From positions 1 through 10,382 of the forward strand of contig CAMLLE010000055.1 in NCBI GenBank assembly GCA_946480555.1: a stretch of 10,382 nt of DNA. Reading direction: 5' to 3'. A model generated the notes under the pieces. It was not told the DNA's origin. It saw only the letters and a list, made by a program, of their open reading frames with translations, and made no database searches. Source of the DNA: an uncultured Verrucomicrobia subdivision 3 bacterium. Its GTDB lineage: Bacteria; Verrucomicrobiota; Verrucomicrobiae; Limisphaerales; CAMLLE01. Below are positions 1-10,382 of the stretch, one piece after another. A program made the position numbers and the translations under genes. Position 1 is the first letter of the stretch; every line of letters starts with the position of its first letter.

Positions 1-1555
1 CGGGACCGTAGCCAACGGCTTTTTCCGGCCGTTGTCGCGGGGCCGCGCCGCGTTGCACATCAGCCAGGCTGGGAATGGGCCGCCCGTGCGGATCGTTGCT
101 GGCAAACTTCAATCGCCGTTCGATTTCGCGCACCACTTCTTCGCCCAGCACGTGCTCGATTTTCTCCGCATCTTCGTGGACGTGATCCGCGGGGATGTGC
201 GCGGCATTTGTCAGGTAGAGTTCCCAGAGCCGGTGATTGCGGACCATGGAGGACGCGAGTTGCCAGCCGGCTGGCGTCAGGAAGATCATGTTTCCATCCT
301 CGTGAAGCGTCGCGAGCCCATGTCGGCGCAGTGCGTTCGCCTGAGTCTGTGCCTCATCCAAAGTTTCTCGTCGGCGTTCCGCCAGTTCACGCAGAGAAAC
401 GCCTTCACCATTGAACTCGCGATTTTCGAGAACATGATAAATCGATTTGAGCGTGTTCTCCCGCTGGGTTCGCCGCGTGCGGGAACGATGCTTCAACCAA
501 CGCACCACGATGCCATGCCGCGGTCCGAAGAAGAACGCCAGTGCAAACACCGACGTCGCACCCAGGACGATGAATGGTCCCGTCGGCAAGCCCGGTCCCA
601 GAAATGAAACAAACGCACCGGCAGCACCTGAAAACATCCCGAGCACTGCTGCGATCACGAGCAATCGATGAAGCCGATCCGTCAGAAGATACGCCGCCGC
701 CGCGGGCGTGATCAGCATCGCCGAGACGAGAACGACACCGACCGCTTGCAGGGCAATCACGACGGCGAATGCGACGAGCAGCATCAATCCGTAATGGATG
801 GCGTGTGCCGGAAAGCCGCAGCCGCGGGCGAATTCGGAATCAAAGCTGGTGACGAGGAATTCCTTGTAAAAGACCATTACCGCCACGAGGGACAAAACGG
901 TGACAAAGGCCATGAGCTTCAAATCGCCGCCACTGATTGCCGCCGCCTGCCCGAAAAGCACTTTGTCGATGCCGCCTTTATTCCCTGTGGGCAGGTGTTG
1001 GATCATGGTGAGCATGCAAATTCCGACTGCGAAGAAGGTGGCGAGCACGAGTCCAAGCGCGGTGTCCTCCTTCAGGCGCGTGGTGTGCTTTACCAGATGA
1101 ACGACCACCGTTCCGAGCAATCCCGCCAGCGTGGCGCCGATGAAGATGGCAATGGGATCCTTGGTCATGTTCCACAGAAACCCAATCATCACGCCTGGCA
1201 GGACAGCGTGCGAAAGCGCGTCGCCGACCAGCGCCATTTTCCGAACCACAATGAAGCTTCCAAGAAGTCCGCAGGTGAGACCGAGCAGAATGCACCCGAG
1301 CAAGGCAAAGCGAACCGTTGGATCTTGAAATGAGAAAAACCGGAGCGCCTGCTCCAGCACGGTCGTCTCTGACAGCTCTCCGATGCGAGCGGCCTGGGCG
1401 GGGAAACAAAGCGCGAGGAGCAGCGCTGCCAGCGTTTTCCAATTCCAGCAGGTGCCGGACGGACGATGTGGGGATTCTCCGGCGGAAATCGCCTTCTCAG
1501 GTTGACGGCTGTGGTTCATGCAAGTGCATGGAAAGGTGGGCAACGTCGGCATCAT
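1..1555 (-). CDS. Metal-ion ABC transporter permease fused to a DtxR/MntR-like metal-sensor domain (partial, runs off left edge)
   Basis: Minus-strand frame open from ATG 1555 to the edge, 518 codons visible and no stop. Residues 1-40 are a polar leader. Residues 41-56 are a hydrophobic, signal-like segment ending AQAA. Residues about 80-345 are an ABC-3 family (TroC/MntB/ZnuB) inner-membrane channel with several membrane helices and family-typical stretches such as VGDALSHAVLPG (110-121) and ITPAAAAYLL (282-291). A basic linker (352-366) leads to a winged helix (about 367-430) and a DtxR-family metal-binding/dimerisation domain (about 431-496). This domain has H441, E445, H460, E464, E467 and H468, and ends in the family motif DPHGRPIP (488-495). 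Glu at 464, where DtxR has Cys102, is MntR-like and suggests Mn. The start overlaps the ATPase stop (ATGA), with GGAG at 1563-1566 seven bases upstream. M13 is an alternative start. The permease call is firm; whether the sensor part binds DNA is unknown. Confidence 0.9.
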   Translation of the reverse strand, partial: MMPTLPTFPCTCMNHSRQPEKAISAGESPHRPSGTCWNWKTLAALLLALCFPAQAARIGELSETTVLEQALRFFSFQDPTVRFALLGCILLGLTCGLLGSFIVVRKMALVGDALSHAVLPGVMIGFLWNMTKDPIAIFIGATLAGLLGTVVVHLVKHTTRLKEDTALGLVLATFFAVGICMLTMIQHLPTGNKGGIDKVLFGQAAAISGGDLKLMAFVTVLSLVAVMVFYKEFLVTSFDSEFARGCGFPAHAIHYGLMLLVAFAVVIALQAVGVVLVSAMLITPAAAAYLLTDRLHRLLVIAAVLGMFSGAAGAFVSFLGPGLPTGPFIVLGATSVFALAFFFGPRHGIVVRWLKHRSRTRRTQRENTLKSIYHVLENREFNGEGVSLRELAERRRETLDEAQTQANALRRHGLATLHEDGNMIFLTPAGWQLASSMVRNHRLWELYLTNAAHIPADHVHEDAEKIEHVLGEEVVREIERRLKFASNDPHGRPIPSLADVQRGAAPRQRPEKAVGYGP

Positions 1556-2403
1556 CGCACGTCTCCGCGCTCCTTCCTTTCTACTTCGTGGGCCACTTCG
1601 GAGAGAATGGTGAGCCGTCCGCCGTAAGTCTTCTGCAGCAGTTCGTAGTTGAAGACCTCCGCGGTTGTGCCGAAGGCAACCACGCGCATGTTCATCAGCA
1701 GCAGCATGTCGAAGTATTCGCGCGCGGATGGCAGGTCATGATGCACGACCAGCAGGGTCTTCCCCTTGTCTCGCAATTCGTGGAGCAACGTAATGATCGC
1801 GCTTTCCGTCGCGGCATCCACACCCGCGAAGGGTTCATCCATGAAGTAGAGATCGCTTTCCTGCGCCAGCGCGCGGGCGAGAAAAACGCGCTGCTGCTGG
1901 CCGCCGCTCAGATTGGAAATCTGCCGGTTGGCGTAGGGCAGCATTTTCACTTTATCCAGACACTCCAGCGCGATCTCCCGGTCGCGTCGCGAAGGGCGTT
2001 TCAACAGACCCAAATGCCCATAACGGCCCATCATCACCACGTCCATGACGCTGACCGGGAAATCCCAATCCACCGACTCGCGTTGCGGCACGTAACCGAT
2101 GCGCTTCAGGTTTTTCTTGATCGGCTCCCCAAAGACCTTGATCCAGCCGCTGCTCACCGGGAGCATTCCCATGGCGGCTTTGATGAGCGTGGACTTGCCT
2201 GCACCGTTTGGGCCAATGATCCCGACAAGCTTCCCTTTCGGCACGACGACGTCCACGCCCCAGAGCACCGGTTTTTTGTGATACGAAACGGTCAGGTCAT
2301 GAATCTCAAGCGGGATTTCGGCGGAACCCCGCGATTCGGCCAGGCCGCGTGTCTGCGGCAGGCCGTCGCGATTCCGTTCATCGGATGGGTCGGGCGTTCG
2401 CAT
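1552..2403 (-). CDS. Metal-ion (Mn/Zn) ABC transporter ATP-binding protein
   Basis: ATPase that powers the metal importer from the cytoplasmic face of the inner membrane. With the ATG at 2403 it has 283 residues. It shows Walker A GPNGAGKST (64-72), Q-loop Q107 in YVPQRE, signature LSGGQQQR (165-172), Walker B LYFMDEP (185-191), a D-loop around 193-199 and H-loop H222. The sequence RESVDWDFPVSVMDVVMMGRYG (108-129) is typical of the TroB/MntA-ZnuC metal subfamily. An earlier ATG at 2472 would overlap the upstream gene by 65 bases and add an unconserved-looking leader. The 2403 start leaves a 4-base gap after the upstream stop (TGA 2410-2408), so it is preferred, although its ribosome binding site is weak. 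Even from 2403 the first 30 residues are a charged extension before the fold begins at PLEIHDLTVSY. The stop overlaps the start of the permease. Function is certain at family level; the metal is inferred. Confidence 0.93.
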   Translation of the reverse strand: MRTPDPSDERNRDGLPQTRGLAESRGSAEIPLEIHDLTVSYHKKPVLWGVDVVVPKGKLVGIIGPNGAGKSTLIKAAMGMLPVSSGWIKVFGEPIKKNLKRIGYVPQRESVDWDFPVSVMDVVMMGRYGHLGLLKRPSRRDREIALECLDKVKMLPYANRQISNLSGGQQQRVFLARALAQESDLYFMDEPFAGVDAATESAIITLLHELRDKGKTLLVVHHDLPSAREYFDMLLLMNMRVVAFGTTAEVFNYELLQKTYGGRLTILSEVAHEVERKERGDVR

Positions 2404-2407
2404 CGGA

Positions 2408-3259
2408 TCACTCGCTGCGTTTGAAGAAATGTTCAAATGAAACGTAAAGGAATGCGCCGATGTCCGGCGCACCGCTGTTCAACCCAACGGGAATTCCCAA
2501 GCCAAGCACGCATTGCGCGCCGTTGTCGAAGTTCAATGCCTTCCGCACCCCGGGTGAAATGATGTGCGAAAAATCATGCCGGAGATTTCCTGACGTCGGC
2601 AGCGAGTTCTCCCAGCCAGCGGTCCATTCCAGCATCAGGTGCAGGTCGCGTTGCACGGCGTAAATGACGCTCGCGCCGACGTTGTAATGCCACAGATCGC
2701 GATCATCGGCGGAAGCTGCGTCGGGAACGAAGGTGGTTCCCGCGTTCAGATGCAGATACACGTCGTCACTGAGCGCGACGCTGAACGGAAGATTCAATTC
2801 GCCGCCGACTGTGTCTTCGCCGAAGCCGGCATCGGCATCACCGGTGGGCAGGATGATTCCAACGCGTGGAGCCAGAGCGAGCATCGACTCCTCGTCGAAA
2901 TAGAGCTGATAACGGTAGTCCAGTTGTATGTCGCCAATGCCGTCGCGTGTATCGCCCGGCATATCGATGAATTGATAGGGAAGCGTGTAGCTGAACTGAT
3001 GGCGCTGGCTGAAGATCGGCCATTCCTGGGTGAATGCGAGATCCCATTCGCCTTCGTCCAGATTGGAACGATGCGGCGCGTGGTAGAGCGTCGTAAAGAT
3101 GTGCTGAACGACGCCGGGTTCTTGATTGTAGGCTTCTTCGACGAAGAACGAATTGTCGGCAATACCTTCAATGTTTCGTTCACGTTTGGCCTCGTCGGCG
3201 AGCAATGGAACGATGCCAGTTGCGAGGGAAACGAACAGCACGGAGGTGATTTTGTTCAT
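2408..3259 (-). CDS. Predicted outer-membrane beta-barrel protein in the metal-transport operon
   Basis: The 283-residue product from ATG 3259 begins with a signal peptide (1-21, cut near LLA/DE). The rest is made of alternating amphipathic beta strands, with GIGDIQLDYRYQL (107-119) and RVGIILPTGD (132-141) followed by GFG. These resemble the 'transporter / MetA-pathway of phenol degradation' barrel family (PF13557 type). The C-terminus LYVSFEHFF (271-279) is aromatic and strand-like, as expected of a barrel insertion signal. The name of that family should not be taken as function: nothing here points to phenol. The gene lies between the metal-binding protein (22 bases upstream) and the ATPase (4 bases downstream), so it is most likely co-transcribed and may admit metal through the outer membrane. 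An ATG at 3301 would overlap the upstream gene and put a polar leader before the signal peptide, so it is less likely. No good Shine-Dalgarno is visible. Confidence 0.78.
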   Translation of the reverse strand: MNKITSVLFVSLATGIVPLLADEAKRERNIEGIADNSFFVEEAYNQEPGVVQHIFTTLYHAPHRSNLDEGEWDLAFTQEWPIFSQRHQFSYTLPYQFIDMPGDTRDGIGDIQLDYRYQLYFDEESMLALAPRVGIILPTGDADAGFGEDTVGGELNLPFSVALSDDVYLHLNAGTTFVPDAASADDRDLWHYNVGASVIYAVQRDLHLMLEWTAGWENSLPTSGNLRHDFSHIISPGVRKALNFDNGAQCVLGLGIPVGLNSGAPDIGAFLYVSFEHFFKRSE

Positions 3260-3281
3260 GAGTTTTGAATTTGGTTTCTGA

Positions 3282-4220
3282 TTAGCGCAGAGCGTCAACA
3301 ATGGTGTTGAGATTGTGGCGGATCATGCCTTCGTAAGTGCCGAGGTCATAGCCATTCTCCATTTCGCCGGGGGTCCCGGTCGCATCGGAAAACAGTTCGC
3401 CGCCAATTTTCACGCCCGCATCCTGACTGACGCGTTCCAACGTCTTGTGTGGAACGCTGGACTCCACGAACACCGCACGAACTTTGTGTTCGCGGATGTA
3501 TTCAACCATCTTCACCACGTCAGCGAGGCTGGCTTCGGTGACGGTCGAGATGCCTTGCAGTCCGACGACTTTGAAACCGTAGGCGCGTCCGAAGTAGTTG
3601 AACGCGTCATGACTCGTCGCGAGGATGCGCTTCTCGGCTGGCAGTTCGCTGGCTTTCTTCATGGCCCACTCGTGCAACCCGTCGAGCCTGACTTTGTAGT
3701 CTTTGGCGCGTTGCTGGAAATACTCCGCATCCGCGGGTGATACTTTCGAAAGACCCGTTACGACGACGTCAACGCACTGGCTCCAAAGCGGGATGTCGAA
3801 CCAAACGTGTGGATCGGGATGACCTTCAAACTCGGCGGGGCTCAAAAGCTTGGCCTTCGGAATCGCGTCTGTGACAGCGAAGACCGGCTTTTTCTGTTTT
3901 GCCATCCGTGCGAGCACATCCTGCATTTTGCCTTCCAGCAGCAGTCCGCAATAGAACACCGCATCCGCCTTTTGAAGGGTTTGCAGATCGGCAGTCGTGG
4001 TTTTGTAGAGATGCGGATCAACGCCGGGTCCCATCAGGCTTTTCACCTCTACACGATCGCCACCGATCTGCCGGACGAGATCGGAGACCATTGTAACTGT
4101 GGCGGCGGCTTGGATCTTCCCGCTGGCTGGAGCTGCGGAAACGCCGGAGATTCCAGCAACCGTGAGCAAACACAACCCGATCAAATTCCGGACACACCGG
4201 AGGCGCGATATAGTTCTCAT
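3282..4220 (-). CDS. Periplasmic metal-ion binding protein of an ABC importer (TroA/MntA/ZnuA family)
   Basis: Captures Mn2+ or Zn2+ in the periplasm and hands it to the permease. It has 312 residues, the usual length of cluster A-I metal-binding proteins. A signal peptide spans 1-30 (hydrophobic 13-28, ending VSAA). The fold's landmarks are GPGVDPHLY (64-72), ADAVFYCGLLLEGKM (85-99), HPDPHVWFD (134-142), ATSHDAFNYFGRAYG (201-215) and LFSDATG (277-283 region). The predicted metal ligands are H70, H138, H204 and D279. This His-His-His-Asp set is TroA-like; classical Mn-specific PsaA/MtsA proteins usually have Glu as the third ligand. The His-rich loop of many ZnuA proteins is absent, so the metal cannot be settled. 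There is no lipobox cysteine, so the protein is predicted soluble, as in Gram-negatives. It is the first gene of the operon, and the barrel, ATPase and permease follow. Confidence 0.94.
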   Translation of the reverse strand: MRTISRLRCVRNLIGLCLLTVAGISGVSAAPASGKIQAAATVTMVSDLVRQIGGDRVEVKSLMGPGVDPHLYKTTTADLQTLQKADAVFYCGLLLEGKMQDVLARMAKQKKPVFAVTDAIPKAKLLSPAEFEGHPDPHVWFDIPLWSQCVDVVVTGLSKVSPADAEYFQQRAKDYKVRLDGLHEWAMKKASELPAEKRILATSHDAFNYFGRAYGFKVVGLQGISTVTEASLADVVKMVEYIREHKVRAVFVESSVPHKTLERVSQDAGVKIGGELFSDATGTPGEMENGYDLGTYEGMIRHNLNTIVDALR

Positions 4221-4228
4221 AATGAAAG

Positions 4229-4264
4229 TTAGACACAGCTAAATCATAACGCGGCCGGTGTCAA
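4229..4264 (-). promoter_or_regulatory. Candidate promoter and operator upstream of the metal-transport operon
   Basis: On the minus strand a perfect TTGACA lies at 4264-4259. The optimal 17-base spacing puts only a poor -10 (TAGCTG, 4241-4236) behind it. A better-looking TATGAT (4248-4243) is only 10 bases away and cannot pair with it. An interrupted inverted repeat TTAG-N6-CTAA (4229-4242) covers the poorly matched -10 site, and lies nine bases before the ATG. Its position fits a repressor site of a DtxR/MntR-like protein, but the arms are only four bases long and could be chance. The intergenic region to the divergent DUF971 gene is 115 bases. Confidence 0.3.
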
Positions 4265-4335: not shown

Positions 4336-4650
4336 ATGCAAGCGTTGGACATCCAGCAGATCGGAAACGAACTGGCCATCAAATGGAATGACGGCTCGGA
4401 GACTTTTATTCAGCTCGAAGCACTACGCCGGGCTTGTCCGTGCGCCGGATGCAAGGGTGAGGTGGATGTGATGGGCCAGCTGCACAAAGGGCCGGAAATT
4501 CCGCTCAGGCCGCAATCGTTTGAACTGAGTTCGCTTCAGTCGGTTGGGGGATACGGGCTGCAGCCGCGGTGGCGCGACGGGCATCACACCGGGATTTTTT
4601 CCTTTGCGTTGCTGAAACAGCTCGGGGAAAAGCAAACAGGCGCCGCTTGA
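4336..4650 (+). CDS. DUF971 domain protein (GBBH-like N-terminal domain)
   Basis: A 104-residue single-domain protein. The pattern IKWNDGSETFIQLEALRRACPCAGCKGE (about 15-42) followed by GGYGLQPRWRDGHHTGIFSFALLKQL (about 71-96) matches the DUF971 / gamma-butyrobetaine hydroxylase-like N-terminal domain. That family carries the signature LR..CPCA.C, a W.DGH segment and G-I-[FY]-[ST]. The cysteines at 34, 36 and 39 and the His pair of DGHH could bind metal. In other bacteria the domain stands alone, or is fused to Mrp-type or hydroxylase proteins; its biochemical role here is unknown. An in-frame TAG at 4324 leaves ATG 4336 as the only sensible start, with GTAGGG just upstream. The gene is divergent from the metal operon and convergent with the pilus cluster. 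Its TGA stop lies inside a terminator hairpin loop. Confidence 0.88.
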   Translation: MQALDIQQIGNELAIKWNDGSETFIQLEALRRACPCAGCKGEVDVMGQLHKGPEIPLRPQSFELSSLQSVGGYGLQPRWRDGHHTGIFSFALLKQLGEKQTGAA

Positions 4651-5783: not shown

Positions 5784-7436
5784 TTATTGAACTTCAGCGA
5801 ACTGGGGTTCAGCTTTTGCCTTCTTGCGACGGCTCCAGTCTTTCGGTTTTGCGCTGTCCCAGGACGTCCACGTCTTGCTCGGGGCATCTTGCACCGGCGT
5901 CTGGAGGAACTCCGTTTTGGTCGGCTGATAATCCGTGTCCTTGACGATGGTCGGAGTGATGAAGATCAGCAGGTTGTTTTTCTCCTGCGACTTTGAGTCG
6001 CTGCGGAACGCACGGCCGAGCACGGGAATGTCGCCCAACATCGGGACTTTCGTGTTGCTGTTGCGCGTGTCGTCCTGGACGAGACCGCCCAGCACGAGCG
6101 TGTTGCCGCTCGGGATCATGACGGTGGTTTCCATCCGGCGCGAATCGAAGATGTAAGCGGTGTTTTCCTGGCCCTGGCTGAACACGGTGACCGTGTCGAA
6201 GATGCGCGAAACTTCCGGCACGACGCGCAGGTTGATGTTGTCGTTCGCCGAGATGCGCGGCGTGACATTCAGGATCACACCGAGGTTGGAATAGGTGACT
6301 GACGAACCGCCCGGCGTATTTGCCGTGCCGGCCGTTGTGCTGAAGATCGGGAACTGGCGCGTCACCGAGAGCGTGGCAGCTTCGTTGTCGAGCGTGACCG
6401 TGCGTGGAGTTGAGAGCACGCGGGCTTCTGAACTCTGGTTCAGCATGGAGAACACTGCGCTCACGCCGTCAGCATCGAGGAACGCGGTCGCCGGGCTGAA
6501 GCCGCCCGCGGTGTCGATCAGCATCTTCGGGAAGGAGCTGGACAGGGTTGGGTTTGCCGAGCCGGATGGCGGTTGCTGGCCTTCTGGAGTGTTCAGGTTG
6601 TTACCGAACCGGAGATTCTGTGCCTGCAAAGTTCCGGTCCAATCAAGGCCCTTGATCGTGCGCGGATTCAAAGAAGTCTCTAGCAAGCGCGCTTCGATCA
6701 GCACCTGGCGTGTCGGAAGATCAAGCTGAGATACCATGTTCGTGATGGCGCGAATTTCGTTTTCCGTGGCGACGAGCACCAGCTGGCTGGTGCGAACGTC
6801 AGGCATTACACGGCTGCGCTTGTCGATCAAACCCGATTGCACCGCCGGCAAAATGTTGGTGGGGCTGGAGTACTTGAGCTGGATGATCTGGGTGAGCAAC
6901 GGATCTGGCGCTGCGGGATCTTTGACGGTGATGCGCGCGATCTTCGTCTTCGGGTCGTCAACCATCTGGAGCGTGTAGTTGTTCAGCAACGCGTGAAGCG
7001 CTTGCTCCGCGGAGATGTTCTCCCACCGAATGGACACGTTCGGCTGCGGAACGGGGCGGCCATCCGCTCCGGCCTGGCCAAACGAGAGGCGGGGGTCGAG
7101 CAGGTAATTGATATTGGCCTGGCGGGCGAGATTCTTGATGGCGTCCGTGAGTGGCACTTCGTCCATGACGATCAACGGAATGACGGCCGAAGTTTTGGCC
7201 TGGCTGTCGGCACTCGGTGCGGCGGAAATTTCTATCGGAGTTTCCGCTGCCGGCGCGGCTGCAGGTTCAACTTCTGTGGCGGCGGGGATTGCCGTGGGCT
7301 GTGCGGCGGCCGCGCCTTCGGAGGCAACGGGGCTTGCGTTGGTGCCTTCTGAGACAGGCTGGTTGTCTTGTGCGCATACAGCCAGTGGGCTGGCCACGAG
7401 CCCGGCAGCAAGCAGTAAAACGAGGTTACGTTTCAT
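5784..7436 (-). CDS. pilQ: Type IV pilus / type II secretion-type outer-membrane secretin (PilQ-like)
   Basis: Forms the multimeric outer-membrane channel of the pilus machine. From ATG 7436 it has 550 residues. A signal peptide (1-22, ending VCAQ) is followed by a low-complexity Ala/Pro/Glu linker (27-83). Next come an STN-like module (84-172, with PLTDAIKNLARQANINYLLD), a secretin N-type ring domain (180-240, IIQLKYSSPTNI and PDVRTSQLVLVAT) and the secretin domain (about 245-500). The signature is VPMLGDIPVLGRAFRS (464-479), then NNLLIFITPTIV (487-498). A 50-residue tail after the last strand is Trp- and Lys/Arg-rich. It is shorter than proteobacterial PilQ and has no visible AMIN domains. 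A longer frame from ATG 7535 adds 33 residues before the signal peptide and is rejected. The gene follows a terminator and a 308-base gap, so it probably has its own promoter. Confidence 0.92.
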   Translation of the reverse strand: MKRNLVLLLAAGLVASPLAVCAQDNQPVSEGTNASPVASEGAAAAQPTAIPAATEVEPAAAPAAETPIEISAAPSADSQAKTSAVIPLIVMDEVPLTDAIKNLARQANINYLLDPRLSFGQAGADGRPVPQPNVSIRWENISAEQALHALLNNYTLQMVDDPKTKIARITVKDPAAPDPLLTQIIQLKYSSPTNILPAVQSGLIDKRSRVMPDVRTSQLVLVATENEIRAITNMVSQLDLPTRQVLIEARLLETSLNPRTIKGLDWTGTLQAQNLRFGNNLNTPEGQQPPSGSANPTLSSSFPKMLIDTAGGFSPATAFLDADGVSAVFSMLNQSSEARVLSTPRTVTLDNEAATLSVTRQFPIFSTTAGTANTPGGSSVTYSNLGVILNVTPRISANDNINLRVVPEVSRIFDTVTVFSQGQENTAYIFDSRRMETTVMIPSGNTLVLGGLVQDDTRNSNTKVPMLGDIPVLGRAFRSDSKSQEKNNLLIFITPTIVKDTDYQPTKTEFLQTPVQDAPSKTWTSWDSAKPKDWSRRKKAKAEPQFAEVQ

Positions 7437-7689
7437 GTTCTTAAATTTCCGTTCGTCCAAAGGTGCTTCGGACATGTTCTGGGTTTCGTTGAGCAGTCGA
7501 GGTGCCAAGGGGCTGCGCGCTTCTTTGCCGCGCAATTGAGGAGAACGTTAAACACGGCGTTGTCTGTGAGCGGGACAAGTGGCGAGATGCTGGACGCGCC
7601 AGGTGGAATTCGAATCCAGTTTCCCTGTCCTCGATGCCATCCGGTGCGAGCCGTGAACGATGGGTGGAAACAAGGGCGTCTCACTGTAC
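7437..7689 (-). other. Noncoding leader between the pilP terminator and the secretin gene
   Basis: The stretch from the pilP stop to the secretin start is 308 bases. Besides the terminator at its upstream end it holds no convincing gene: frames through it give sequence unlike a protein. It must carry the promoter of the secretin gene, because the upstream transcript is terminated, but I see no good -35/-10 pair. A 6-bp hairpin (arms 7514-7519 and 7529-7534, TGCGCG/CGCGCA) would lie in the 5' part of the mRNA. The ribosome binding site before ATG 7436 is weak (GGAA at a long spacing). Confidence 0.5.
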
Positions 7690-7692
7690 AAG

Positions 7693-7719
7693 AAAAATGG
7701 GCTCCGACTCCGGAGCCCA
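7693..7719 (-). terminator. Intrinsic terminator after pilP
   Basis: Perfect inverted repeat GGGCTCCG (7699-7706), loop ACTC (7707-7710), CGGAGCCC (7711-7718), extended by one T-A pair (7698/7719). In the minus-strand transcript the stem is followed by ATTTTTCTTG, a textbook U run. It lies 26 bases beyond the pilP stop codon and would end the pilMNOP message before the secretin gene. Confidence 0.85.
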
Positions 7720-7744
7720 CGGTGAACAAAAATGTCAGGCGGTG

Positions 7745-8194
7745 CTATTTCTTCTTCGCGCCCAATTTGAGTTCGATTTGCTGGCCCTGCATTTCGACCA
7801 CCACCGTTTCTCCCTTGATCGAAAGGCATCGAATCGGAATGCGCTGCCCGCCGACCCGCAGTTCAGTCTGTTCACCTTCGGCAAGCGTGCGGCCGTTGAT
7901 GATCGCGAGTGGCTCGTCGGCGGTGCCGGAGAGACCGTTGTAAACCAGCGTGATTGTTGGAGCGGGCGCCGCCTTCTCGACTCCGGACGTTCGTTTCGAT
8001 TTTGGGAAAAACGGATCGCGCCCCGCAGTGTTGGTCGGGACCTCAAAGACGGATTCGGGCACGGCGTTGGTGATGTACGCCAGCGGGTTGACTCGGATGC
8101 TGGAACGGGACTGGCCGGCCGCAGAGGGCGCTGACGCCACGACAAAGAGCAGGCCAGCCGCGGCGCTCAGAAGTAATTTGCCTTCGATCTTCAT
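7745..8194 (-). CDS. pilP: PilP-like periplasmic pilus assembly protein
   Basis: A 149-residue protein with a signal peptide (1-27, hydrophobic 8-22, ending SAAGQ). The motif GRDPFFP (58-64) precedes a small beta domain (80-146), as in the PilP/GspC homology-region proteins that link the inner-membrane PilNO complex to the secretin. The domain has LVYNGLSG (83-90), ELRVGGQRI (111-119) and VVVEMQGQQIELKL (131-144). The start overlaps the pilO stop as ATGA, so translation is coupled. Unlike proteobacterial PilP there is no lipobox cysteine near the signal-peptide cut, so membrane attachment must come from partners or from an uncleaved signal anchor. The assignment rests on position and motif rather than strong sequence identity. 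A GspC-like or otherwise diverged alignment-complex protein is an alternative name for the same role. Confidence 0.8.
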   Translation of the reverse strand: MKIEGKLLLSAAAGLLFVVASAPSAAGQSRSSIRVNPLAYITNAVPESVFEVPTNTAGRDPFFPKSKRTSGVEKAAPAPTITLVYNGLSGTADEPLAIINGRTLAEGEQTELRVGGQRIPIRCLSIKGETVVVEMQGQQIELKLGAKKK

Positions 8195-8775
8195 AGTGCT
8201 TTGCGTTGGGGGCTCACGAGCGAAACGATGTCCATTCGGAACGAGAGTTTGTCCGCGTCGTCGGGGCCGGAGGACGAAGCATGTGTCAGGTTGAGATTGT
8301 GAATCCGTGCCGTCGGAAAATGATTCTCAAACTCGGCGATGAACTGCCCAATCTCGAAATAGGTCCCTGTGCCCGCCACCGTCAGCGTGAATTGCTTGTA
8401 AGGAAACCGGGGGATCATATCGACCGGTATTTCAGCGCCCGCACTGAACTGCGGAATCTCGACGCTGTAGTCCTGTTTGAATTTGCGGACGAGGCTGACC
8501 ATGGAGGAATAGAGATCGCCGCTGGCCATCAGCTGTTCCTGGTCAGCCAGCTTGCTGTTCACGACCTGGAGGTCGGCTTCGATCGCCTTGGCGGTCTTGA
8601 TGATTTCCACGACCTGGGCGCGTTTACTGTCGCTCACCGTTTTTTTGTTGGCGAGCTGTTCCAGCAATCCCAGCTGGTAACGGATCAGGAACGACCACAA
8701 ACCGCCGACCACCACCAGCACCATGATCACGGCGAGGACGACCTGCTGGCGCTTTTCTTTGGAAAGCTTCTTCAT
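8191..8775 (-). CDS. pilO: PilO-like inner-membrane pilus assembly protein
   Basis: A 194-residue bitopic protein. A short basic N-terminus (1-10) is followed by one membrane helix (11-31), a periplasmic coiled coil (about 36-85, with repeated Lys/Glu/Ala/Val heptads) and a ferredoxin-like domain (about 90-188). FPYKQFTLTVAGTGTYFEIGQFIAEFENHFP (124-154) is the typical PilO segment in which strand, loop and helix follow each other. PilO pairs with PilN and connects PilM in the cytoplasm to PilP and the secretin. The start overlaps the pilN stop (ATGA), and AGGAG lies at 8784-8788, eight bases upstream. The length is normal for the family. Confidence 0.87.
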   Translation of the reverse strand: MKKLSKEKRQQVVLAVIMVLVVVGGLWSFLIRYQLGLLEQLANKKTVSDSKRAQVVEIIKTAKAIEADLQVVNSKLADQEQLMASGDLYSSMVSLVRKFKQDYSVEIPQFSAGAEIPVDMIPRFPYKQFTLTVAGTGTYFEIGQFIAEFENHFPTARIHNLNLTHASSSGPDDADKLSFRMDIVSLVSPQRKAL

Positions 8776-9440
8776 CGTGTCTTCTCCTGGAATTTGGCCT
8801 GAAGTGTGAACGAGACAAACGGCTTGCCCGTCTCGTCGGTCTGAGGTGCTCCAAGATTCATCAAACGGAATTGATTCGTGCGTCCGAGCAGCGCGGTGAA
8901 ATAGGCATTCGTGGCCAGGCGATCCTTGTAGATGTTCACGGCATCGCCGGGGTTGGCGCCGCGATCGCGCGCCTGCAACGTGAGCACAATGTTCTCGCGG
9001 GAGGTGGCCGGCTTGGGCGTCACTCGCGGGCCGCCCGATTTCTGCCGCACTTCCTCTGTTTGAAAATAACTGTGCTGCAGCATGAGCGAAGTGAGCTGCA
9101 CGTCCGGCAGCGTGGTGTCGGAAAGCGTCTGGAGCAGATTTCCGACAAGGAACCGGTTGGTCGAAAGCTTGTGCATGGCGAGAAGCTTCTGGCCGCCATC
9201 GAACAAGTTCTTCTGGTCCGTCATGATCTGCGCGTATTCGGTCTTGCGGGTTTCGATGTCCTGTTCGAGCCGGTGGACTTCTCCGCGTGCCATGATGGTC
9301 TTTACCCAGAGCGAGCTGCTGTAGGCGAGGATCAGCATTGCCAGGCAGGCGCCGATCAGGATCACGCGTTTGACGGGGTCGCGCTGCCGGAGTTCCTCCA
9401 GAGCGTGCGCTTCAGCAAGAAGATTAATGCGTATCGGCAT
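8772..9440 (-). CDS. pilN: PilN-like inner-membrane pilus assembly protein
   Basis: A 222-residue bitopic protein. The cytoplasmic N-terminus contains RINLLAEAH (4-12). The INLL motif is what PilN uses to dock into PilM. One membrane helix spans about 25-47, a coiled coil about 50-90, and a periplasmic alpha/beta domain runs to the end. Residues 133-150 are a Gly/Pro/Lys/Arg-rich loop interrupting that domain. The gene begins one base after the pilM stop and overlaps pilO by four bases, so the three are translated as one unit. No Shine-Dalgarno of its own is evident, which fits translational coupling. Identification rests on the N-terminal motif, topology and gene order; the periplasmic domain is too diverged to align by eye. 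Confidence 0.86.
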   Translation of the reverse strand: MPIRINLLAEAHALEELRQRDPVKRVILIGACLAMLILAYSSSLWVKTIMARGEVHRLEQDIETRKTEYAQIMTDQKNLFDGGQKLLAMHKLSTNRFLVGNLLQTLSDTTLPDVQLTSLMLQHSYFQTEEVRQKSGGPRVTPKPATSRENIVLTLQARDRGANPGDAVNIYKDRLATNAYFTALLGRTNQFRLMNLGAPQTDETGKPFVSFTLQAKFQEKTR

Positions 9441-9441
9441 A

Positions 9442-10382
9442 TCAGAGAACGGTGAGAGCGGTTCCGATGGCGACGGTCAATTGCGGGCTGATCTGTTCCA
9501 GTTCCGCCGCTTGTTGTGGCGGCAGAGCCAGCTTGAGGGAGCGGGCGGGATTCCACGGCGCGCATTCAGTTGCAAGCTCCTGCCGCAGGATCTGCAGCAC
9601 GAACTCCGAGCGCGCGGAGCCGCCGGACACGAGCACTTGCGATATTGGGCGGTCCTGCTGGTGTTCGAAGAAATCCATGGAAGCCCGAAGCTCGCGGCCG
9701 AGCGGTATCAGCAATGCCTCCAGCACGCTTTGAACTTCGGACGGCATTCCGACCTTGATCCCTTCAGCCTCCGCGTAGCTGATGTTCATCGCTTCGGACA
9801 AGCCAGCCGTCAGACGGTCTCCGCCAATGCTCACCACGCGATTCAACGCGAGTTCGCCTTCACGCACGATCGAGATCGAAGACGATTTGAAGCCGATGTC
9901 CACCAGCGCGACGACGTCGCTGCCGAAGACTTCGGGAAAGGCATTTTCAAACGCGTTCACCGGACCGATCGCACACGGGAGGATGTTCTCGGCGATCAAG
10001 CCGGCCGCTTTGGTTGATTTGACGTAGAGATCGACCAGCTCGGTTTTTGCCCCGGCGATCAAAGTTTTTTGTTTTGTTCCCGCCGCCGGCTTTTCCGTGG
10101 TCGCCGCCGGTGGACGAAAGAAATCGAAGGTATAGCCGGTGAGATCCTGTTGAAGATAGGCGCGCGAATTGTTCTTTAGAATAAGACGGACGTCCTCATC
10201 CGGCATGACCGGCATTTCCACGTGCCGGACGATCGCGTCGTTCACGCCGATGGTAAGGGCGACGTGTTTGACCTTGGCGTTCAAGGCCGAACTGATTGTG
10301 ACGAGATGCTCCTTCAGGAGATCCTGGGACATCGCTTTCTCGTAGAGCGGCGCATCGACGACTGCGTAGTTGCAGAGCGTCA
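9442..10382 (-). CDS. pilM: PilM, actin-like cytoplasmic pilus assembly protein (partial, cut by right edge)
   Basis: Actin/FtsA-like ATP-binding protein that forms a ring under the pilus machine and binds the PilN N-terminus. The frame is open to the window edge. An ATG at 10332 is in frame, but the 16 codons before it (TLCNYAVVDAPLYEKA) read like the family's first strands, so the true start lies outside the window and only the N-terminal phosphate-1 loop is missing. Numbered from that ATG, the visible motifs are PVMPDEDVRLILKNNSRAYL (41-60), VALVDIGFKSSSISIV (141-156, phosphate-2), VSIGGDRLT (167-175) and VLVSGGSARSE (233-243, adenosine motif). Residues 73-90 are a Pro/Ala/Lys-rich insert. 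It ends one base before pilN. Confidence 0.9.
   Translation of the reverse strand, partial: TLCNYAVVDAPLYEKAMSQDLLKEHLVTISSALNAKVKHVALTIGVNDAIVRHVEMPVMPDEDVRLILKNNSRAYLQQDLTGYTFDFFRPPAATTEKPAAGTKQKTLIAGAKTELVDLYVKSTKAAGLIAENILPCAIGPVNAFENAFPEVFGSDVVALVDIGFKSSSISIVREGELALNRVVSIGGDRLTAGLSEAMNISYAEAEGIKVGMPSEVQSVLEALLIPLGRELRASMDFFEHQQDRPISQVLVSGGSARSEFVLQILRQELATECAPWNPARSLKLALPPQQAAELEQISPQLTVAIGTALTVL

Follow-up and report, generated by a model that had tools for sequence, protein, structure and literature searches.

The window (the whole stretch of DNA analysed, 10,382 nucleotides) begins with an ABC-3 metal permease that continues in one frame into a DtxR-type domain. We think it rather probable that this fused domain is a metal sensor resident in the transporter, probably acting as an allosteric brake, and that a separate MntR represses the operon. 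So far the Chlamydia model, with the domain as a repressor in waiting, has guided the interpretation of permease-DtxR fusions. If those of the Verrucomicrobiota are direct transporter sensors, then both the order of steps by which YtgCR evolved and the significance of the fusions in other phyla need rethinking, and a Zn/Mn/Fe-type ABC importer would have a built-in metal brake. The permease-DtxR architecture is already known and studied; the verrucomicrobial domain is what differs.

A permease and a DtxR-type domain in one frame

The fusion gene and its operon comprise the following features, with residues numbered along the fusion frame:

2..1555 (-), permease-DtxR fusion gene (open reading frame, Pfam, related loci); 3' end cut by the window edge
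527..1324 (-), ABC-3 permease domain, residues 78-343 (PF00950, 2.2e-70; PsaC-like fold)
422..511 (-), predicted continuous basic helix from the last membrane segment into helix 1 of the domain, residues 349-378 (AlphaFold2)
65..460 (-), DtxR-fold domain, residues 366-497 (fold match)
323..364 (-), position of the DNA recognition helix, residues 398-411 (DtxR 37-50); acidic and weakly conserved
71..277 (-), metal-binding and dimerisation part, residues 427-495 (PF02742, 1.1e-23), with H441, E445, H460, E464, E467 and H468
1552..2472 (-), ABC ATPase of the importer; its stop overlaps the fusion-gene start (ATGA)
2408..3301 (-), predicted outer-membrane barrel-like protein within the operon (PF13557, Pfam)
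3282..4220 (-), zinc/manganese-type substrate-binding protein, ZnuA-type (PF01297, Pfam)
4229..4242 (no strand), palindrome TTAG-N6-CTAA, a predicted MntR operator, 8 bp upstream of the start codon of the binding protein

The fusion frame spans 518 stop-free codons and runs past the window edge; the gene is incomplete in the window, and the fusion proteins of relatives terminate 2-3 residues beyond the cut end. The first-pass annotation had proposed that a single frame joins an ABC-3 permease to a DtxR-type domain, and the Pfam matches to both parts bear this out, that to PF02742 falling within residues 367-496, where a DtxR-family match was expected. All six of the histidines and glutamates that it had named are in place. 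Its winged helix survives in part: the fold is present in the model, but the DtxR DNA-binding family PF01325 was not matched in the window fusion by a Pfam profile search with E up to 0.1. Against PDB sequences, the tail of 168 residues matched the DtxR family (best 5zr4, 1.4e-17, starting at tail residue 28). Family, PDB and fold searches thus concur, and we ruled out PF02742 as a chance match. No SH3 domain was found in the window fusion.

To the window we added 80 related loci, retained from 258 that were found in genome contigs with an alignment of the domain. Their submitters' titles are nearly all Verrucomicrobiota, and a few (L016, for example) appear mislabelled. The fusion is in frame in 80/80, five of which have one frame end outside the locus and were excluded from the fusion alignment. 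Because every related locus is fused in frame, the fusion is no product of chance or of a frameshift; this disposes of a sequencing error as its origin, and of the stop or frameshift near 490-520 that the first-pass annotation had allowed for. Two other suspected fusions with both PF01325 and PF02742, in G037 (557 residues) and G127 (905 residues), gave no permease match; on reading, each is a regulator preceded by a frame that is unrelated or spurious. The fusion of G088 (L177, 382-1929) has a winged helix that is shorter still and an extra C-terminal tail which, by reading, may be SH3- or FeoA-like.

Going upstream from the fusion, the genes encode the ATPase, the PF13557 barrel-like protein and the binding protein. 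Compared with a ytgABCD-type order, the window has the binding protein, the ATPase and the permease-DtxR gene, with the barrel gene added between the first two, and it ends before the fourth gene. Because a second, plain permease lies within 300 bp downstream in 70/78 relatives (loci with at least 900 bp downstream), the window edge probably truncates a ytgABCD-like operon. The window fusion is best read as the first of the permeases in an ABC importer of Mn type, or perhaps Mn/Fe type, of the ytgABCD/troABCD kind. PsaBC-type Mn2+ ABC importers have the same permease fold, the full fusion model matching 7kyp_B with a TM of 0.92 by target length, and likewise have ATPase and binding-protein partners; the PsaBC permease chains matched are 258-290 residues long and have no DtxR domain. 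In eight genomes (L103-L108, L110 and L111) both permeases carry PF02742, and seven of the eight also have a separate DtxR gene within the fetched stretch.

Several neighbouring genes deserve mention. The PF13557 barrel-like protein is possibly an outer-membrane metal channel; another such gene (L156, 4020-4925) is the first of the Nramp operon in G033, which has a similar palindrome ahead of it. A GBBH-like_N (PF06155) gene at 4336-4650 of the window is divergent and shares the promoter region that bears the operator. In L056, a second set of binding protein, ATPase and plain permease (9807-12494) follows the fusion operon on the same contig. The window also holds, at 5784-10332 (-), a type IV pilus-like cluster extending from a secretin-like gene (5784-7535) to a PilM-like gene (9442-10332), as judged from reading the translations only.

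Metal site, recognition helix and junction

In DtxR, site 1 is formed by H79, E83 and H98 and site 2 by M10, C102, E105 and H106, and TroR has N10 and E102 (PMC2628430). The window holds the full TroR set: N367, H441, E445, H460, E464, E467 and H468 correspond to N10, H79, E83, H98, E102, E105 and H106, N367 being assigned to M10 from where the aligned range of the fold match begins. TroR of Treponema (troABCDR) thus shares all seven ligand positions, including the Asn at DtxR M10 and the Glu at 102, and the same ligand set is reported to be Mn- or Mn/Fe-responsive in the two treponemes studied (PMC2628430). Unlike the fused domain, TroR has a gene to itself and is a free-standing protein that binds DNA. 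PF02742 is present in 76/76 window-type fusions, and in all 76 the positions of H79, E83, H98, E105 and H106 are conserved; N367 is invariant, and position 102 is E in 72 and D in 4. From this conservation we infer that the fused domain binds metal.

It is also conceivable, and in our estimate quite unlikely, that the domain is a structural remnant which only aids pairing or stability of the permeases, with a metal site that is merely structural. The dimerisation and metal-binding half is indeed well conserved (identity 0.74 across 20 genomes), and the tandem pairs have the domain on both permeases. Such a role would hardly call for seven ligands in two sites, whose near-perfect retention appears to exceed what pairing needs.

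The DNA-reading part of the domain has fared differently. PF01325 was absent from 76/76 window-type fusions and from all 25 members of a second set (23 other fusions and 2 of window type; E <= 0.01 in both cases), whereas it was present in 33/33 separate regulators, 31 of them from fusion-bearing genomes and 2 from G047 and G131. In the 20 genomes with both proteins, identity at the exposed positions of the recognition helix was 0.31 in the fused domain, versus 0.61 for the whole domain, and 0/500 random position sets were as low; the corresponding values for the separate regulator were 0.55 and 0.58, with 204/500 random sets as low. We regard this 20-genome comparison as the fair one, since a figure of 0.69 for the MntR helix is inflated by genomes having been chosen for QASVT. 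The mean net charge of the first half of the helix was -2.37 in the 76 fusions versus +0.33 in the 33 regulators. In the second fusion set this half was not acidic, with a mean of +1.25 (24 counted, 2 of them window-type; one of the 25 lacked the anchor motif and was left out of the position counts).

A search from a Puniceicoccaceae-type fusion gave close relatives, with PF01325 in none of the best 120 of 1916 matches, and a further search for relatives found it in none of the best 120 of 1512. A hybrid query for canonical permease-DtxR fusions returned, as far as the matches were named, free actinobacterial DtxR proteins of at least 260 residues, and the best 120 of 437 matches all show PF01325 (counted by eye).

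The Pfam non-match in the fused domain is a matter of divergence and is not proof of lost DNA binding. The Q43A and P39G variants of IdeR, the former with unchanged and the latter with lower affinity, are reported still to bind consensus DNA (PMC8464063), and the base-contact residues are therefore not decisive for DNA binding. Taken together, the sequence comparisons suggest that the fused domain no longer binds DNA. Because its metal site is kept and a conserved DNA-reading helix is not, the domain probably senses metal for the transporter.

The first-pass annotation had placed a basic linker at residues 352-366. The segment is basic as described, but it is predicted to be part of one helix, residues 349-378, and not a loose linker. 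This helix (336-365 in job numbering, shifted by 13) is of high confidence in the single-chain AlphaFold2 model, and within it E366, N367, K370 and E377 are invariant in the fusion alignment. The junction is modelled as continuous, a prediction that neither shows nor excludes cleavage. The related claim, that a separate regulator start is unlikely for want of an in-frame ATG ahead of the winged helix, needs qualifying: no ATG lies in the linker, but there are GTG codons at 350 and 351 and a TTG at 354, and ATGs occur at 423 and 437. Among 75 relatives, 66 have an ATG, GTG or TTG within the linker and helix 1; 27 have an ATG there, and in 22 a start follows a Shine-Dalgarno-like 4-mer. No common position was seen for these starts across the 75, and GTG is not enriched, accounting for 47% of Val codons in the linker and helix 1 of the relatives versus 53% elsewhere. 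With neither a shared position nor an enrichment, we ruled out a conserved separate start in the linker, and an internal translation start in the fusion gene is unlikely.

The separate regulator and the promoter palindrome

A separate canonical DtxR/MntR is present in 38/38 fusion-bearing genomes examined. Of these, 20 were reached through the loci, each with at least one separate PF02742 protein that is canonical and MntR-like when read; a phylum sample of 144 genomes adds at least 18 in which the fusions were read, each with a separate PF01325 protein. In 13/80 loci mntR was found next to the operon, within the stretch fetched; a fourteenth match, in L020, was an antisense artefact and was removed.

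The palindrome of the window, which may resemble the E. coli MntR box, lies 16 bp after a TTGACA. Of 81 promoters, 25 were not evaluable for this element; among the other 56, TTAG-N6-CTAA occurs exactly in 24 and with one mismatch in 14 more, against 0.17 exact and 4.83 one-mismatch occurrences in shuffles and 0.56 and 0.92 in random windows. In fusion operons the palindrome (at most one mismatch) goes with a QASVT recognition helix in the separate MntR, being found in 17/17 such cases and in 0/9 with other helices (Fisher 3.2e-7, a value that ignores relatedness). About four helix types are represented among the nine exceptions, and 2/28 rows were left out of the table (G019, with no annotated binding-protein start, and L071, with no matched helix).

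We also examined genomes that have no fusion. Where these have a single PF02742 regulator, the exact palindrome lies within 250 bp upstream of it in 4/20; three of the four have non-QASVT helices, and two of these three are beside a putative or confirmed feoB. In G033, a fusion-less genome with QASVT, the exact palindrome lies between mntR and a PF13557-Nramp pair. The second fusion-less QASVT genome, G065, has no palindrome within 250 bp upstream of the regulator and no Nramp. A genome-wide search with an extended palindrome pattern found it rarer than the reversed control, and no regulon emerged. The match of palindrome and helix therefore holds within fusion operons and is loose outside them. 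Because the palindrome occurs in fusion-less genomes, the box goes with free DtxR-family regulators in the absence of any fusion, and the simplest account is that it is the separate regulator's site and that repression can do without the fused domain. We infer that the separate MntR is the repressor of the operon, and that the window organism has an MntR of its own, since the window promoter carries the palindrome.

These results bear on the Chlamydia model, under which the domain, cleaved from the permease or still tethered to it, would repress its own operon in a metal-dependent manner. The first-pass annotation had known of no functional study of such proteins, which was mistaken. Chlamydia YtgCR is a permease-DtxR fusion whose C-terminal part is reported to be cleaved and to repress its own operon (PMC5599777, PMC7755916, PMC6504234); according to a review, such fusions occur in 11 phyla. 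As described, YtgCR (CT069) likewise has an ABC-3 permease followed in one protein by a C-terminal DtxR/TroR-like domain, and its metal ABC operon shares the ytgABCD gene order. DNA binding has been reported for YtgR, and by the same account no other iron-dependent regulator has been identified in Chlamydia (PMC6504234). DNA binding by this, the only studied relative, counts against our preferred reading; the shared architecture and gene order, the full ligand set kept in the fused domain and the DtxR winged-helix fold retained in the model would suit a YtgR-like role. In the fusions here the recognition helix is unconserved, and a separate regulator accompanies them in the genomes examined. 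We rejected the repressor as a default on four grounds: the absence of PF01325 from every window-type fusion against its presence in every separate regulator, the acidic and variable recognition helix, an operator that tracks the separate MntR within fusion operons and is found in fusion-less genomes as well, and a junction modelled as a continuous helix. For the Verrucomicrobiota we consider a YtgR-like role unlikely.

A further possibility is a cross-talk device: the domain would bind, or pass metal on to, the separate MntR, and the active importer would thereby hold MntR in place or charge it. Both proteins are of the DtxR family with PF02742, and mntR does sit beside some of the operons. 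The two are of different DtxR subtypes in the 20 window-type genomes, however, the DPHGxPIP tail being read only in the fusion, and no mntR was found in the fetched stretch of 67/80 loci. We consider such cross-talk highly improbable.

A probable sensor in the transporter

We return to the reading of the fused domain as a sensor for the transporter itself. A separate canonical DtxR/MntR would repress the operon, at TTAG-N6-CTAA in the window-type lineage, and the TroR-like fused domain, with both metal sites and the dimerisation half kept, is probably not the repressor in the Verrucomicrobiota. It would hang rigidly from the last membrane helix and would bind Mn2+ when cytoplasmic metal is high; the metal-bound domain, by pairing or by moving, may then slow the transporter. 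Because the last membrane segment and helix 1 are modelled as a single helix, a movement of the domain could pass to the permease. The presence of the domain on both permeases in eight genomes suits pairing within one transporter, which is not assured in the window type, where only the first permease carries it.

Trans-inhibition of this kind is proposed by analogy with MetNI and ModABC, and the likeness to the window importer would be a functional one. In those importers it is the ATPase that carries the sensor, which is of ACT-like or Mop/TOBE type instead of DtxR. Both are reported to be shut off by their substrate through a cytoplasmic regulatory site (PMC10710835). By this analogy the fused domain may gate transport; we propose feedback inhibition as the sign of the gating, with activation as the alternative. 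The open-access literature searched yielded no account of an ABC importer gated by a DtxR domain.

The first-pass annotation had the importer carrying its own metal sensor, either as a membrane-tethered repressor or as an allosteric brake. The DtxR-type metal-sensing domain is there. The tethered repressor is unlikely because the recognition helix is degenerate and the operator goes with the separate MntR, and the brake, by analogy, would fit better. As to origins in the Verrucomicrobiota, we give about an even chance to a history in which a DtxR repressor fused to a permease, lost DNA binding and became a gating cytoplasmic sensor, and a separate repressor took or kept the promoter.

A protein of 313-361 residues combining PF02742 with FeoA, and having no PF01325, is encoded directly upstream of feoB in 8/8 fetched genomes (L168-L175), which makes it a second DtxR-like class linked to a transporter and having an HTH that goes unrecognised. 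With this DtxR-FeoA protein next to feoB, DtxR sensors that are attached to transporters and do not bind DNA may form a wider class.
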